Source: Candidatus Poseidoniaceae archaeon (lineage in GTDB: Archaea; Thermoplasmatota; Poseidoniia; Poseidoniales; Poseidoniaceae). From it: DNA of 64,000 nt. The position numbers were made by a program, and so were the translations under genes. The stretch lies in assembly GCA_949372875.1 (NCBI GenBank), contig CASIAW010000003.1, positions 1 to 64,000 on the forward strand, written 5' to 3'. Under the pieces are notes generated by a model that saw only the letters and a program-made list of their open reading frames with translations, was not told the origin of the DNA and did not search any database. Below are positions 2,310 to 48,411 of the stretch, piece after piece; positions within the stretch are counted from its first letter, which is position 1; each line of letters begins with the position of its first letter.

Positions 2310-2323
2310 AGAAGGATGTTAGC

Positions 2324-3583
2324 ATGTCGGACGTTGAACATTGGATTCGTCACGGCGTTGAAATGCGACGTCCGCTGTTAGTGAAACAATCACTTTCGCA
2401 ATCTGAGAAAGTAATCATCGTCGGGGGTGGCCTTTCAGGAATGAGTTGTGCATATCGAATCGCACAAAAAAGACCGAGTGCTGAAGTTATTTTGATTGAA
2501 AAATCCGAACATCTTGGTGGAGTTATATCGACATGGACTGAAGAGGAATGGGTCTGTGACCTTGCAGTGAATGCAACTCGAGCCCACCCTGCATTTTGGC
2601 GACTCGTCAAAGACCTCAATCTTTCAAAACAGTTCCAACCCTCTCGTCCCCGGGCGAAATCCCGATGGGTTTTACTTGGTGAGAAAAGGCATCGTTTGTC
2701 GCCCTTCACACTGTTTAAAATCGGACCTCTTCGCCTACTTAGAGCAATACGAGGTGGCAGAAAGGGAGGCGTTTCTGTAGCCCAATTACTTCCACATAAA
2801 CAGATTGCAGATGCCTTGACTTTGGGTATCGTCAACACGACTTCTGAACATGTCGATGCTGATTTTCTCATGCCTTCTATGACTCGTTTTGGGCCGATTC
2901 CCCCTCTCAAAAATTCTCGATTGAAAAAGCAAATCAAGGCTACTTATCCACTTTTCACGCCAAAGAAAGGCGCAGTTGCTTCCTTTGAAGGTGGAATGTA
3001 TTCGCTTATCGATGCATTACAGAACCAACTTGAGTCAATGGAGAACGTGACGGTGATCACTGGCCAGAGTGCAGAGTCTCCCCAATCTGTGGCAAGCCAA
3101 TTTGATGTATCCTTAGATTCGATACTGTGGACTGCTCCGGTTTTGGAAACTGACCGGGAACTCACAAAATTGAGCGTATTTGCAGTGGGATATCGCAACG
3201 AAGATGTGGCACACATTGACTATGGCTATGGAACCTTGATTCCTGATGCTTCAATCCCAATCAGTGGTATCCTTCATGAAAGTGACCTTCACCATTCTCA
3301 GCGTGCACCCGAAGGTCATCGGTTGTTTCGAATTATGGCGCCTCACGCCCGCTGGGATGGAGATGAAAGCAAGATTGAAGAATCTATAGAACGGCTCTTA
3401 AGCGGCAAGAAGCCTGTGATTTTCCGAAATCTTGGTGTTCAAACCATACCGACTTATCCACCAGGATATATGCAAGGTCTATCTCAAAAATCAATTGATT
3501 GCAGTTATGCGGGATGGGGAGTAAGTGGCGTTTCAATAACTCACGTGGTCGATGAAGCCGAGCGTGTTGCAGAGCTATTCTAA
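2324..3583 (+). CDS. hemY: Protoporphyrinogen oxidase, FAD-dependent (HemY/PPOX type)
   Basis: An FAD-dependent amine-oxidase-fold protein of about 419 residues. It has an N-terminal dinucleotide-binding motif (IIVGGGLSGMSCAYR) followed by LIEKSEHLGGVIST, typical of PPOX, and the closing YAGWGVSGVSITHVVDEAERVAELF segment corresponds to the family's C-terminal FAD-contact motif. It would oxidise protoporphyrinogen IX to protoporphyrin IX. Gene order after hemE and hemF supports the assignment. A TTG at 2306 overlaps hemF; I prefer the ATG at 2324, preceded by GAAGGATGTTAGC. It ends tail to tail with hemH with a 4-base overlap. PPOX, as opposed to another amine oxidase, is inferred mainly from context and the N-terminal motif. 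Confidence 0.85.
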   Translation: MSDVEHWIRHGVEMRRPLLVKQSLSQSEKVIIVGGGLSGMSCAYRIAQKRPSAEVILIEKSEHLGGVISTWTEEEWVCDLAVNATRAHPAFWRLVKDLNLSKQFQPSRPRAKSRWVLLGEKRHRLSPFTLFKIGPLRLLRAIRGGRKGGVSVAQLLPHKQIADALTLGIVNTTSEHVDADFLMPSMTRFGPIPPLKNSRLKKQIKATYPLFTPKKGAVASFEGGMYSLIDALQNQLESMENVTVITGQSAESPQSVASQFDVSLDSILWTAPVLETDRELTKLSVFAVGYRNEDVAHIDYGYGTLIPDASIPISGILHESDLHHSQRAPEGHRLFRIMAPHARWDGDESKIEESIERLLSGKKPVIFRNLGVQTIPTYPPGYMQGLSQKSIDCSYAGWGVSGVSITHVVDEAERVAELF

Positions 3584-4611
3584 GCCGCAATAGGTGAACT
3601 GAACTTGTTGTGAATCATCTTCTCAAGTCCTTCAATCCAATCTTCGTTATCATTGAGGCACTTTATGACAGTCAATTCTTCCCCGCCAAGTTCTTCAAAG
3701 TGTTCACGAATACCGATGTCGAGTTCTTCAAGAGTCTCCAGTCCGTCGGCTAAGAATGCAGGTGCTACAATCGCCAACTTTTTGATACCTTTTTTGGCTA
3801 ATTCCTCGACTTTATTCATCGTTGAGGGTTCTAGCCATTTCACTGGCCCAAGCCGGCTTTGGAAACTGATTGACCATTGTTCTGGTTTGAGGCCAAGTAG
3901 ACCGACCACGGTGTGGGTTGTCTCAAAACATTGATGGCCGTAACACATCTTGTTTGCATCGGTTTTAATCGAACAACAGTTGTTTGTTTTTTGGCAATGT
4001 TTTTTGCTTTCATCAATTCTTTTGACATGTGAAACTGGAAGTCCATGATATGAGAAAAGCAAGTGCGTATCTTCATCAATGTGCTCTTGAATGGAATTTG
4101 CTAGAGGGACAACATAGTGTTCATCGGTTTCAAAGTGTCCCATTTCAATGATTTTAGGATTCCAGTCGATTTGTTTCAGTTGTTTGTATGTATGCTTGAG
4201 GGAGGATTCGGTCGTAGCTTGTGCAAAGTGTGGGAACATGGGTAGGAGAAGAAGTTCCTCTACCCCTCTGTCACGTAAGTTCTCGAGACCGCTTTGGATG
4301 CTTGGTTCTCCATACCTCATTGCAAAATCGAATTCGATTTCTTCTGATTTTTGAGCGAGAGACTTGGTTATTCGATCTGAATACACACGGAGAGGTGAGC
4401 CTTCATCCATCCATATTTTTTGATAAAGAGGAGCGGTTTTTTTCGGCCGAACTCTCAAAATAATTCCTCGCACGAGGAGATGACGAAGTGGTGCAGGGAT
4501 GTCGATTACATCTGGGTCGAGGAGAAACTCTCTGAGATATTTTCGAACTGATTCAACAGTCGGTTCAGTTGGAGTCCCTACATTGATGAGGAGAACTCCT
4601 TTCTTACCCAT
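3580..4611 (-). CDS. hemH: Ferrochelatase with cysteine-rich insert
   Basis: This 343-residue enzyme inserts Fe2+ into protoporphyrin IX. Landmarks are GVLLINVGTPTEPT at the start, LLLLPMFPHFAQATT, LLFSYHGLPVSHV with the metal-site histidine, WSISFQSRLGPVKWLEPST, and APAFLADGLETLEELDI. A cysteine cluster (HCQKTNNCC then MCYGHQC) lies after the SYHGLP region; comparable insertions occur in several bacterial ferrochelatases and can ligate a 2Fe-2S cluster, so one may be present here. I chose the ATG at 4611, which begins MGKKGVLL; an upstream ATG at 4635 would add eight residues. It faces the hem operon convergently and completes the path from glutamate semialdehyde to heme. Confidence 0.94.
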   Translation of the reverse strand: MGKKGVLLINVGTPTEPTVESVRKYLREFLLDPDVIDIPAPLRHLLVRGIILRVRPKKTAPLYQKIWMDEGSPLRVYSDRITKSLAQKSEEIEFDFAMRYGEPSIQSGLENLRDRGVEELLLLPMFPHFAQATTESSLKHTYKQLKQIDWNPKIIEMGHFETDEHYVVPLANSIQEHIDEDTHLLFSYHGLPVSHVKRIDESKKHCQKTNNCCSIKTDANKMCYGHQCFETTHTVVGLLGLKPEQWSISFQSRLGPVKWLEPSTMNKVEELAKKGIKKLAIVAPAFLADGLETLEELDIGIREHFEELGGEELTVIKCLNDNEDWIEGLEKMIHNKFSSPIAA

Positions 4612-24294: not shown

Positions 24295-26265
24295 ATGGCC
24301 ATTGTAGCAAAGGTATGGATTGAAGAAGATTGCATAACATGCGACGCTTGTCAAGACATATGTCCTGAAGTGTTTCTCGTTTCAGAAGATACATCGGAAA
24401 TTATAGCCGCAGTCCGCCTTGATGGTCAACTTGATCGTAACGTCGGTGGCGCAGGTATGTCTGGCTCTACCGGTGCAGATTACGGTGATATGATTCTCGA
24501 GGCTGCGGAAGCGTGTCCTGTTGAAATCATCAAATATGAAATTCAAGGTGAAGTCGCCGCTGAAGCAGTTGTAGAAGCCGCTCCAGCAGCAGCTGTCGCA
24601 GCGGCACCTCCAGCAGCGGCTGCCGCAGTAGCAACAGGCGGTAGTGACGCTCTGCAAGCACTCATGGGCGGTGGCGACCGTTCTCTTTCTATCTTCTTCG
24701 GTTCTCAAACCGGAAACGCAGCAGGACTGGCTGAAAAGACGGCAAAACTCGCATCAAATTACGGTTTAGTTCCAACAGTCTACGACATGGATGGATTTGA
24801 CCCAGCAGCGCTTGGTAACCACAAGCGGACGCTCATCATTACCTCTACATGGGGTGAGGGAGAAATGCCTGATAATGCTGAAACACTCTGGCAATCGGTG
24901 AGTTCACAATCTCCTTCGCTCAATGGAGTCTCTTTCAGTATCTGTGCTATAGGTGATACTGCATACGATGAATTCTGTAAAGCAGGAACCGATTGGGATG
25001 AAAAATACGTCGCACTTGGTGCGAACCGAGTCCATTCCATACAACTCTGTGATGTTGATTTTGACACACCTTGGAGTCAATGGGTCGAAGAAGCCCTTCC
25101 AATGATTGCTTGTGTCGATGAATCCGGCACTCTCCAAGAAGTTCTTCTCGATGAAATGAAAGAATACGGCTCCGGCTCTGGAGAAGAAGTCGTCTCTGGT
25201 GATTTCACTCCTGCCTCAATTATCCAACAGGACTTATCAATCACCCTTTCTTTATTCCGTTACTGTCCTGCAGCATCTGACACTGGATGGGATACCATCG
25301 CTTGTGCAGTTCCAGGGCACGCAACCGTTGAAGACCTCCTCGTTGCCGTTCAACACGATGTTGACGGCAGTTTGGCATTCCGCCGAGGTAATGGAAACGG
25401 AAGTCCAACCACAGGTCTACGGGTAAACGGTCGAATTGTCCTTGCTGACTTGATTCAAATCAGCGAACTGGTCAATGACGGTGGCGTTTTGAAGATTGAA
25501 CCACTTCCTGGTTATCCAGTAATTCGTGATTTGATTGTTGATTATTCCTCTTTTGAGACGAATCGTGTTGCCGCCAAACCATGGTTGCGAGCCGATCCTC
25601 GAGACGGGCACACGCTCCTCAACGGAAACGCAATGGGTACTATGGAGATTGCAACTGCAGCGACACTTCACTCAATGACTGACGTTGTTTCTTATCAATT
25701 GCTTCAATCAATGTCCGACACCTTTGCGTATGACTCGGAATACAAGGGTCCTGGAATCCTTCTTCAGCAATGGTCTCGAAGTATCGACCCTCGAACTGGG
25801 GAATCTCAACAAAATGATTTGATGCACTCTCTTGGAAGCGAACACGGTGTTTGGTCTGAGGCTGATTTCTCATCCGTCGCCCGCTACGGCTCTGATGGAC
25901 GAACAGCCTCGAAAGCACTCAACACAGCACGAGGAAAAATTCTGAACTCAACGAATTACACCGGCCCTCATGGCCGTCTTGTCAAATGGTATGGGCGCAG
26001 TGTGAAGTGGAGCGGAAACGTCAATGAAACGACCCTTTACCGCCAAGTCCTCGGACCTGTCGGCCTCTTAAGTAACATCTTTGATGGCGTATCTGCACGA
26101 ATGTTCCTTGGTTTCACCCGAACCGGTGCGCCGCCATTCCGTAGCCTACAAGCACTTCTGGCTCCACCTGCTGGAATCGGCAAGATTCCGAACATGATTA
26201 ACAGCAAAGTGGCTTCTCACCATGAAGTTGTAAATCTGTTCAACGAAATTGATCAGAGGTTCTGA
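24295..26265 (+). CDS. Ferredoxin-flavodoxin-SdhB-like fusion lacking SdhB Fe-S cysteines
   Basis: 656 residues. Residues 1-80 are a ferredoxin with C13xxC16xxC19xxxC23P and a later ACPVEII, enough for one 4Fe-4S cluster. An Ala-rich linker (about 88-115) leads to a flavodoxin-like FMN domain (FFGSQTGNA near 132, TSTWGEGEMPDNA near 184). From about 315 on it follows SdhB/FrdB: DGSLAFRR, VNGR, LKIEPLPGYPVIRDLIVD, KPWL, KGPGILLQQW. The plant-type 2Fe-2S loop is RGNGNGSPTTG in place of RSCRxGxCG, and the 4Fe-4S/3Fe-4S regions read IATAATLHSMTD and SEADFSSVARYGSDG, without ligands. A tail of about 100 residues is unique to this protein. It is coupled to the next gene (9-base gap). Electron entry by ferredoxin and FMN is inferred. 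Confidence 0.82.
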   Translation: MAIVAKVWIEEDCITCDACQDICPEVFLVSEDTSEIIAAVRLDGQLDRNVGGAGMSGSTGADYGDMILEAAEACPVEIIKYEIQGEVAAEAVVEAAPAAAVAAAPPAAAAAVATGGSDALQALMGGGDRSLSIFFGSQTGNAAGLAEKTAKLASNYGLVPTVYDMDGFDPAALGNHKRTLIITSTWGEGEMPDNAETLWQSVSSQSPSLNGVSFSICAIGDTAYDEFCKAGTDWDEKYVALGANRVHSIQLCDVDFDTPWSQWVEEALPMIACVDESGTLQEVLLDEMKEYGSGSGEEVVSGDFTPASIIQQDLSITLSLFRYCPAASDTGWDTIACAVPGHATVEDLLVAVQHDVDGSLAFRRGNGNGSPTTGLRVNGRIVLADLIQISELVNDGGVLKIEPLPGYPVIRDLIVDYSSFETNRVAAKPWLRADPRDGHTLLNGNAMGTMEIATAATLHSMTDVVSYQLLQSMSDTFAYDSEYKGPGILLQQWSRSIDPRTGESQQNDLMHSLGSEHGVWSEADFSSVARYGSDGRTASKALNTARGKILNSTNYTGPHGRLVKWYGRSVKWSGNVNETTLYRQVLGPVGLLSNIFDGVSARMFLGFTRTGAPPFRSLQALLAPPAGIGKIPNMINSKVASHHEVVNLFNEIDQRF

Positions 26266-26274
26266 GGCGATTCT

Positions 26275-27138
26275 ATGGCGGCTAAAAAGATTGCATACTA
26301 TGCCGGGAATACTGCCCGAGCGGCATCTTCGGAAGTAGAAGACTGTATCCAACCACTGTGTAAAACTCTCGGCATCTCATTAATCGAGATTCCAAAAGCC
26401 AGCAGCGATGGTGCGAACATCATCAAACAATCATCGCCTAAGCTTCAACACGCTTTAGTTGCTAGAAATCTCGCTTTGGCCGAATCAAAGGGCCTTGATA
26501 TTTTGACATCATGCGCCACCAGTCACGGCATCATGTGCGATACGATTGATGAATTCAAAGAGGACATCGGTTTTGCAAACCACGTCAATAACATCGTTGC
26601 ACGAACTTCCAGTGTGGAATATATGGGCGAATCACAATCACGGCATTTGTTGCATTACTTGGTCGAGGAAATTGGTCTTGACAAAATCAACGATGCAGTT
26701 GTCAATCCACTTCGATTGAACGTTGCGGCATACTATGGCCCAAATATGCAACGCCAAGGAGCCTGTGGGGATGATGACCCATTCATGCCAACATACATGG
26801 AACAACTGATTACCGCTTTGGGTGGAACTCCTGTTGAATATGATTTGAAGTGCCAAAGCGTCGGTGCTCCTGCTTTGCTCACCATTAACAAACCCGTTAT
26901 GCGAATGACAGCAGCCGTTCTTTCAGATGCAAAAAGCAGCGGAGCAGATGTGATTGTTTCTGCTTGCACGATATCTCATTCCAACCTTGACTCTTACCAA
27001 TCCAAGGCCGGTAAAATTGCTCGCAAAGACACCACAATGCCGATTCTTCATCTGGCAGAATTAGTCGCCTTTGCCTTGGGTCATTACCCTGATCGGTTTG
27101 CACAACTCCGAACACGTGCACTGGTCATCGGTGGTTAA
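26275..27138 (+). CDS. HdrB/SdhE-like CCG-domain protein with ligand cysteines replaced
   Basis: 287 residues with the two-domain CCG layout of heterodisulfide reductase HdrB and SdhE-type subunits. It has YYAGNT for YxxGC, ASSDGAN for ASCCGA, ARNLALAESKGLDILTSCATSHG for the ECNGC region, YYGPN for HYGCH, DDPFMPTYMEQLITALGGTPVEY, QSVGA for CCGA, and SACTISHSNLD for CPxCHxxLD. In each domain four of the five expected cysteines are gone; only C80 and C231 remain. The fold-defining residues persist, so this is not decay. It starts 9 bases after the fusion gene with GAGGCGATTCT before the ATG. Likely partner: the SdhB-like fusion upstream. Confidence 0.82.
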   Translation: MAAKKIAYYAGNTARAASSEVEDCIQPLCKTLGISLIEIPKASSDGANIIKQSSPKLQHALVARNLALAESKGLDILTSCATSHGIMCDTIDEFKEDIGFANHVNNIVARTSSVEYMGESQSRHLLHYLVEEIGLDKINDAVVNPLRLNVAAYYGPNMQRQGACGDDDPFMPTYMEQLITALGGTPVEYDLKCQSVGAPALLTINKPVMRMTAAVLSDAKSSGADVIVSACTISHSNLDSYQSKAGKIARKDTTMPILHLAELVAFALGHYPDRFAQLRTRALVIGG

Positions 27139-46536: not shown

Positions 46537-46945
46537 GGTTTAGGGGCGGACAAACATTGTCGGCTCGTCATTTTAGTCTCCAAGTTCTATTTCACATCTC
46601 AATTGCGGCTCAGTCCGCCTTTTTCACTACCCTTGTCGAGAGGGTACGTTGATATATGGGAGGTAAGTGGCAAGGTTGCTTGCGTAGTCGAGAACGGCGT
46701 TGGCGGCTGAGTCTTCGGACGATGACTGTCGCCATCCTCTTGACACGTGAAGCCGAAGCTATTGCGATCTTGAGAAACCTTCCCCCCACGGAAGCTCGCT
46801 CTTGGTCAGGTAGGTGATCGAGATTATGACGTATTTTTGTGTAAGAAGCATTAGTGCATTATACTCTCGCCAATTTTTTTAGGACAGTAATTCAATTTCA
46901 ATAAATGAATTTGCGACAAGTAGCCTAAGGATCATAACAAGAGAA
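46537..46945 (+). promoter_or_regulatory. 16S rRNA promoter and leader region
   Basis: There is no gene in this 409-base gap. A GGCGGAC (46545-46551) and GTCCGCC (46613-46619) pair followed by TTTTT may end the upstream mRNA. The promoter-like ATATATGGGAGGTAAGT (46652-46668) matches the ribosomal protein operon upstream motif and is followed by a small hairpin GCAAG-GTTG-CTTGC. The rest, up to the 16S start, is leader sequence with no recognisable open frame; a run CAATTTTTTTAGGAC lies at about 46871-46885. The exact transcript start cannot be told from sequence. Confidence 0.6.

Positions 46946-48411
<1,466 letters not shown>

Follow-up and report, generated by a model that had tools for sequence, protein, structure and literature searches.

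What becomes of a respiratory enzyme once the clusters that carry its electrons have nowhere left to bind? The question is raised by two adjacent genes, p1 and p2, in the first 64,000 nucleotides of contig CASIAW010000003.1 (assembly GCA_949372875.1) of a Candidatus Poseidoniaceae archaeon, order Poseidoniales (Marine Group II); this stretch is referred to below as the window. The two proteins resemble SdhB and SdhE of the E-type succinate:quinone reductase (SQOR) SdhABE, with a ferredoxin and a flavodoxin added to p1 and nearly all iron-sulfur (Fe-S) ligand cysteines replaced. We find that this ligand loss is real and order-wide, not a sequencing defect, and that repurposing of the pair, not decay, is well supported. 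As to what the pair became, our answer is tentative: we give somewhat less than an even chance to a repurposed 'ghost' of the SdhABE complex, in which tethered flavin domains work instead of an iron-sulfur wire. The features of the pair in the window are as follows.

24295..26265, plus strand: p1, ferredoxin + flavodoxin + SdhB-like protein, 656 amino acids (open reading frame; Pfam and NCBIfam matches)
24295..24549, plus strand: N-terminal single-cluster ferredoxin domain of p1, residues 1-85 (Pfam; alignment A4)
24550..24639, plus strand: Ala/Pro-rich linker of p1, residues 86-115, probably flexible (predicted local distance difference test (pLDDT) below 50 in the model)
24676..25119, plus strand: flavodoxin domain of p1, of the type of cytochrome P450 reductase (CPR) and CysJ, which bind flavin mononucleotide (FMN), residues 128-275 (Pfam and NCBIfam; alignment; structure matches)
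25228..25944, plus strand: SdhB-like part of p1, residues 312-550, without Fe-S ligands (profiles; alignments; structure matches)
25945..26262, plus strand: C-terminal tail of p1, residues 551-656 (aligns with the tail of outgroup SdhB; nonsynonymous rate, dN)
26275..27138, plus strand: p2, SdhE/HdrB-like protein, 287 amino acids, 8 of 10 non-cubane cluster ligands lost (open reading frame; profiles; alignment)
26512..26514, plus strand: codon of p2 C80 (Cys in 50 of 50 rows)
26965..26967, plus strand: codon of p2 C231 (Cys in 50 of 50 rows)

Loss of the iron-sulfur ligands

An initial annotation of the window had described two intact, coupled genes, and both reading frames are indeed uninterrupted, with a gap of 9 bases from the p1 stop codon to the p2 ATG. 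Its alignment of p1 with SdhB from about residue 315 agrees with a match of the SdhB model NF004616 to residues 315-521 (E 8.6e-20, although, like all NCBIfam matches of p1 and p2, far under the model's own cut-off in score); Pfam matches of p1 are Fer4_13, Flavodoxin_1 (E 1e-26) and Fer2_3 (E 3e-10). The p2 protein matches CoB_CoM_SS_B (E 4.5e-39) and MFR SdhE (E 6.6e-37), and a profile comparison with outgroup SdhE gave a probability of 100% over 272 columns. An AlphaFold2 model of p2 (pLDDT 88.6, predicted template modeling score 0.89) has the fold of heterodisulfide reductase subunit B (HdrB), with its two CCG domains; the best matches in the PDB are HdrB chains, with query template modeling (TM) scores of 0.86-0.88. 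The p1 model is of low confidence (mean pLDDT 63.7, tail below 50) and served for domain-level matches only, the best being SdhB chains, then FMN domains of CPR.

Within this framework the ligands are gone. The claim that the SdhB-like part has no ligand cysteines holds for 62 of 66 Poseidoniales rows, which have none of the 12, and the other four have one each; cysteine thus occupies 4 of 792 ligand cells, and 0 of 552 in alignment A4, which comprises 46 full-length p1 rows, all from the window's family. (The 66-row count leaves out the duplicate or unused loci L001, L055, L068-L070, L071-L075 and L094, eleven loci in all, and the short L025.) Outgroup archaea of the same phylum have all 12 ligand cysteines in 8 of 8 SdhB rows, with SdhE adjoining, and outgroup SdhE carries 10 of 10 in all seven rows of alignment A1. 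This alignment also holds 50 Poseidoniales p2 rows, from about 70 distinct ones fetched by then. The residues earlier named at eight p2 ligand positions (N12, S44, D45, S83, P156, S195, V196 and S234) are correct, and the retention of C80 and C231 is borne out by cysteine in 50 of 50 Poseidoniales rows; an earlier alignment of 68 rows has cysteine at C231 in every row and at C80 in 67, with a gap in the other. Instead of the ten-cysteine motif of SdhE, or the five Cys ligands that HdrB has for each non-cubane cluster, the window's p2 keeps 2 of 10, and five intermediate rows keep 6 of 10. Counts for domain 1 are N12 45 (C 5), S44 43 (C 5), D45 28 (C 22) and S83 24 (T 17, C 5), and for domain 2 P156 41, S195 50, V196 48 and S234 49, each of 50.

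Relatives with canonical cysteines, expected if this copy were a sequencing or assembly defect, were not found for the SdhB-like part; for p2 the five intermediate rows have the cysteine set of domain 1, though not that of domain 2. Because the same loss runs across the Poseidoniales p1 and p2 rows, it is not a sequencing defect. We also chose 20 CCG proteins from other families in the phylum: 18 have the full ten cysteines and one has nine, and the last, a fragment, shows the five of domain 2. The window's own genome (2.16 Mb, 13 contigs) encodes two other proteins whose CCG regions are rich in cysteine, so proteins of this kind have not disappeared from the organism; a second p2 homolog was not found in it at E up to 10.

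The claim of a complete FMN domain is supported by 18 positions of the expected FMN loops that are identical in 46 of 46 rows of A4, and by TIGR01931 (E 5.9e-33, matching over the FMN part only). The claim of an intact CxxCxxCxxxCP motif in the ferredoxin stands in part: C13, C16 and C19 are kept in 46 of 46 rows, whereas C23, the last cysteine of the motif, is replaced in 11 of 46. A remote cysteine, C74, is kept in every row. Since C23 varies while the other four are invariant, the single cluster of this domain is most likely held by C13, C16, C19 and C74. Residues 86-115 and 295-310, on either side of the flavodoxin, have pLDDT below 50, which is consistent with a mobile FMN domain.

Distribution, selection and order of loss

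The p2 gene has a match in 48 of 48 Poseidoniales genomes of our phylum sample (26 of family f1, 22 of f2), a few of the matches being cut by contig ends, and in none of five genomes of f3, a family of the same class but another order. Among 59 relatives it is found in 55, including all 15 with a completeness of 90% or more and a contamination of 5% or less; the four relatives without a match are at most 77% complete. The ratio of nonsynonymous to synonymous rates (dN/dS) is 0.016-0.063 for p2 (the 4 of 8 pairs with computable dS) and 0.043-0.081 for whole p1 (4 of 6 pairs), figures that are rough because dS exceeds 1.5. It is below 0.13 wherever computable, approximate as saturation of dS makes it, which indicates strong purifying selection, and the C-terminal tail has the lowest dN of the p1 parts in five of six pairs. 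At several former ligand positions a single new residue has become fixed (S195 in 50 of 50 rows, S474 and E522 each in 66 of 66), while others drift (366, 370, 464, 467 and 525). Thermosome and Hef-like helicase genes, named from their translations, flank the pair in the window; the same gene order is found in the f2 genome G043, and homologs of both flank the p1-p2 loci in all 20 genomes examined (5 f1, 15 f2). Order-wide presence, purifying selection, constant flanks and ligand positions fixed as new residues together uphold the earlier proposal of repurposing. That p1 and p2 are a decaying pseudogene pair, of which ligand loss alone would be expected, can be dismissed in view of their retention across the order, intact frames, low dN/dS and fixed replacement residues.

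The loss was stepwise, because the five intermediate rows, from three genera (G152; G121 and G168; G043 and G057), still hold all five domain 1 ligands, with one of five in domain 2. The SdhB parts of these intermediates have no ligand cysteine except one in L041, and C45 of p2 is still present in f2, where most of the window's family has Asp. Judged from these sequences, the ligands of SdhB and of p2 domain 2 were lost first and those of domain 1 later. A single loss of C12, C44 and C83, with one change for C12 on the p2 tree, was considered and judged not safe. The p2 data, with ligand columns removed, reject the tree of thermosome plus Hef by 122 log units, and the SdhB-part data reject it less strongly (41 log units) and place G043 first in f2; the data of the SdhA-like protein described below do not reject it (12 log units, p-AU about 0.17). 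At least two separate domain 1 losses can be read off the thermosome plus Hef tree or the SdhB-part tree by eye. Transfer, hidden paralogs and convergence are all candidate causes of the conflict, among which these trees do not distinguish.

Exchange of ferredoxin for a second flavodoxin

The N-terminal carrier domain of p1 is not constant, a point that goes beyond the initial annotation. Across 20 f2 loci it is a ferredoxin in 11, a second, tandem flavodoxin in six and neither in three, and no ferredoxin was found in these last nine loci. Pfam shows two flavodoxin stretches in both of the tandem cases scanned (2 of 6). Species of one genus, g2, differ (L046 has the tandem flavodoxin, L047 the ferredoxin), and at least seven state changes of the carrier are needed on the p2 tree with 23 rows. 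The six tandem-flavodoxin species have a p1 without any Fe-S ligand set, and their p2 keeps 3 of 10 ligands (45, 80 and 231). This repeated swap makes ocean iron economy directly testable as a cause. Separately, in L039 (G044) the open reading frame 2312-3724 encodes a p1 homolog, seen in one assembly, in which the ferredoxin is joined directly to the SdhB-like part and the flavodoxin is missing.

A third, SdhA-like protein

If p1 and p2 are the remains of SdhB and SdhE, is there an SdhA? A search with PF00890 found three strong SdhA-like proteins in the genome: the SdhA of an ordinary succinate dehydrogenase (SDH), a protein that we read as NadB-like, and an orphan on a different contig from p1-p2 that the initial annotation had not covered.

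G000:C2:124803-126437 (in locus L288, 4798-6420), minus strand: SdhA-like orphan flavoprotein (PF00890)

By our own reading its neighbors are acyltransferase-like, a membrane protein and RFC-like, and suggest no pathway. At E 1e-30 or better it is present in 44 of the 48 Poseidoniales genomes and in 0 of 5 f3 genomes. A second query, at E up to 1e-5, gave a fragment in G047 and copies in G057 and G058 (outside the 48), but no clear copy in G041, G053 or G177; in f3 it gave matches only near E 1e-22 to 1e-24, in three of five genomes, which we take for ordinary SdhA. Internal stops are marked in three of the 44 genes (G014, G048 and G050). The protein appears catalytically dead. None of the 44 sequences retains R260 (L in 43, I in one), H383, R418 or the covalent-FAD (flavin adenine dinucleotide) His50, and H240 is kept in 24; in the dinucleotide motif the first Gly is kept in 44 and the second in 40, and the third is Ala in 38. 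We take R260, H383, R418 and H240 to be the catalytic residues of SdhA, and His50 and the glycines to be flavin residues. The catalytic Arg and His expected of an E-type SdhA are thus missing from this candidate. Its best match outside Poseidoniales is in G098, and the better ones include SdhA genes beside SdhE genes (G219, G097, G150 and G075).

Branch rates connect the orphan with the pair. Once the contributions of thermosome and Hef are regressed out, over the 29 branches of 16 genomes, the SdhA-like protein correlates with the SdhB-like part (rho 0.57, p 0.001) and with p2 (0.41, p 0.029), and the SdhB-like part with p2 (0.40, p 0.030); the positive control, the known SdhA-SdhB pair, gives 0.47 (p 0.010), and the six cross pairs range from -0.11 to 0.17, all p-values being uncorrected for the ten pairs. 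An initial analysis of 20 genomes, with 37 branches, had given the trio values of 0.50, 0.37 and 0.33. That the SdhA-like protein covaries with p1 and p2 more than with true SDH is suggestive.

The pair is not the respiratory enzyme itself, because the genome has a separate SdhA-SdhB pair (L100), both over their model cut-offs and with intact motifs, and dhsB is over its cut-off in 50 of the 59 relatives. A published survey reports canonical complex II in Marine Group II (MGII) archaea (PMC6336850).

A proposed mechanism and its alternatives

These findings can be arranged into the following scheme. The two proteins derive from the neighboring SdhB and SdhE of an E-type SQOR. By the time the two families of Poseidoniales diverged, the SdhB part had lost its three clusters and gained a flavodoxin (FMN) and an N-terminal ferredoxin; the SdhE part lost its two non-cubane clusters in steps. 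The catalytically dead SdhA-like protein is probably a third member of the complex. Electrons cannot take the old wire because the SdhB part has no clusters. Instead, the N-terminal carrier, ferredoxin or second flavodoxin, would feed the tethered FMN domain, which may swing on its flexible linkers and pass electrons directly to the SdhE-like site or to a docked partner. On the SdhE-like side the acceptor would most likely be the two conserved thiols (C80 and C231) of what was once the heterodisulfide/quinone pocket. The conserved parts are the FMN site, the p1 tail, a carrier domain (in most lineages) and the pocket of p2, in which C80 and C231 occupy the same place in the two pseudo-symmetric domains, one in each. 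In the HdrB family clusters lie on both sides of the substrate, and by analogy C80 and C231 probably face each other. In its fullest form, a three-protein complex II ghost whose iron-sulfur wire was replaced by a flavin domain swinging between a new donor and a dithiol of the SdhE pocket, and in which some lineages went from about 18 Fe atoms to 0 by swapping ferredoxin for a second flavodoxin, the scheme seems to us rather unlikely.

Several observations count against the 'ghost' complex. Seven of the 12 SdhB ligand positions vary more than the median column, as plain relaxation would give. The structure models cover the single chains p1 and p2, and iron sparing is no more than a plausible cause. 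Four of the 48 genomes are short of the SdhA-like protein (three without a match, one with a fragment). In a small set, the SdhA of true SDH scores slightly above SdhE-adjacent SdhA against it, and given its long branch the data neither favor nor exclude a joining to E-type SdhA (approximately unbiased (AU) test, p 0.104). The covariation p-values stand before any correction, and the signal itself shifts with the data used: without genus g2 the trio falls to 0.48, 0.28 and 0.25; when the analysis is confined to single-genome branches, the cross pairs reach 0.41-0.70 and the trio 0.80-0.85; and if thermosome is the only background gene, Hef correlates with the SdhB-like part (0.78) and the SdhA-like protein (0.72).

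Alternatively, the module may consist of two proteins only, with the SdhA-like protein an unrelated pseudo-flavoprotein outside the complex, an explanation that we think unlikely but take seriously. The separate contig, the unsettled place in the SdhA tree, the three genomes without a match and the dependence of covariation on the branches used all speak for it. On the other side, the phyletic distribution of the SdhA-like protein is nearly that of p1-p2, it is degenerate in a matching way, and over the full branch set it covaries with p1 and p2, not with the true SDH subunits.

A non-redox role is unlikely too, although it retains some appeal. Here the SdhB-like and SdhE-like (and SdhA-like) shell would be a docking or assembly platform, and the ferredoxin-FMN arm would serve a client. 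Such a scaffold would account for a shell from which nearly all cluster and most catalytic residues are gone, and the low dN of the p1 tail is what an interface would show. A pure scaffold needs neither C80 nor C231, however, and both are invariant where most ligands of the same loops have been lost.

A new site for a metal or cofactor (heme, one small cluster or a mononuclear metal), with the replacement residues, conserved histidines, C80 and C231 as its ligands, is improbable. H124 is invariant, and H235 and H259 nearly so, in a 57-row p2 alignment, and one non-cubane cluster might still find a place in the five rows with five domain 1 cysteines. Cluster-bearing SdhE, however, also has invariant counterparts of H124 and H235, so these two need not be new ligands. 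Most replacements are N, S, P, V or T, which bind metals poorly.

Very improbable is the conversion of p2 into a two-cysteine racemase- or isomerase-like enzyme, for which we compared it with PF01177 genes from the phylum. PF01177 matches p2 weakly in the window (E 0.08) and in two of five other Poseidoniales (E 0.025 and 0.083), Foldseek matches to aspartate racemases begin at E 3e-5, and hhalign gives a probability of 43% over 43 columns, with C231 in the racemase Cys column (4.8% for intact SdhE). Against this, the scores lie under the family cut-off (13.1 bits for the window's match, where 31 are required), and PF01177 has no match in the other three p2 (all with domain 1 intact) or in three outgroup SdhE. 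Moreover, the racemase-fold matches with E up to 0.001 reach a TM of only 0.29-0.38, the hhalign match spans one loop, and it is hard to see what a racemase would do with a ferredoxin-FMN arm.

Relation to known systems

E-type SQOR SdhABE, which includes the 8-methylmenaquinol:fumarate reductase of Wolinella, is described in PMC2680327; SdhE is related to HdrB. Like its sdhB and sdhE, p1 and p2 are homologous to SdhB and SdhE and adjacent, in the window and in the fetched relatives alike; unlike in that system, the SdhB ligands are gone, 8 of 10 SdhE ligands are lost, a ferredoxin and a flavodoxin are added, and the SdhA-like protein is unlinked and without the catalytic Arg and His. Methanogen HdrB (5odc, 8rvy and 7bkb) shares with p2 the fold of two pseudo-symmetric CCG domains but has the non-cubane [4Fe-4S] ligands that p2 lacks, and no HdrA or HdrC is encoded beside p2. 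Residues 128-275 of p1 resemble the FMN domain of CysJ and NADPH-cytochrome P450 reductase in sequence, fold and complete FMN loops; p1 has no FAD/NADPH domain, however, and its electrons would come from ferredoxin or from another flavodoxin domain. The organism's own canonical SDH shares SdhB homology with p1 but differs in its intact motifs, separate locus and lack of rate covariation with p1-p2 over the full branch set. No description of this module was found among the titles and abstracts of the top matches in one open-access library.

Two neighboring subunits that shed nearly every redox ligand, while a whole order of marine archaea keeps their shell, would make an exceptionally clear example of a respiratory complex converted to another use. 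The stepwise intermediates make the order of ligand loss partly reconstructable. The findings suggest an old electron-transfer complex rebuilt for little or no iron. There is also a practical consequence: p1 and p2 are easily annotated as subunits of SDH or heterodisulfide reductase, which would predict electron transfer that is impossible by that route.

Other observations in the window and its relatives

The window carries a complete archaeal 16S rRNA gene at 46945-48410 and no match to 23S rRNA within its 64 kb, so the two genes are not side by side here. Two apparent one-frame fusions of p1 and p2 were rejected as evidence: the frame in G033 is open only through an N in the stop codon, and in G037, a single case and maybe an assembly fault, the p1 tail is cut short at the junction. 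Finally, L165, a contig titled uncultured Rhodobiaceae bacterium, bears a Poseidoniales p1-p2 pair whose p2 is 71% identical; it is most likely a misbinned or mislabelled contig of a metagenome-assembled genome.

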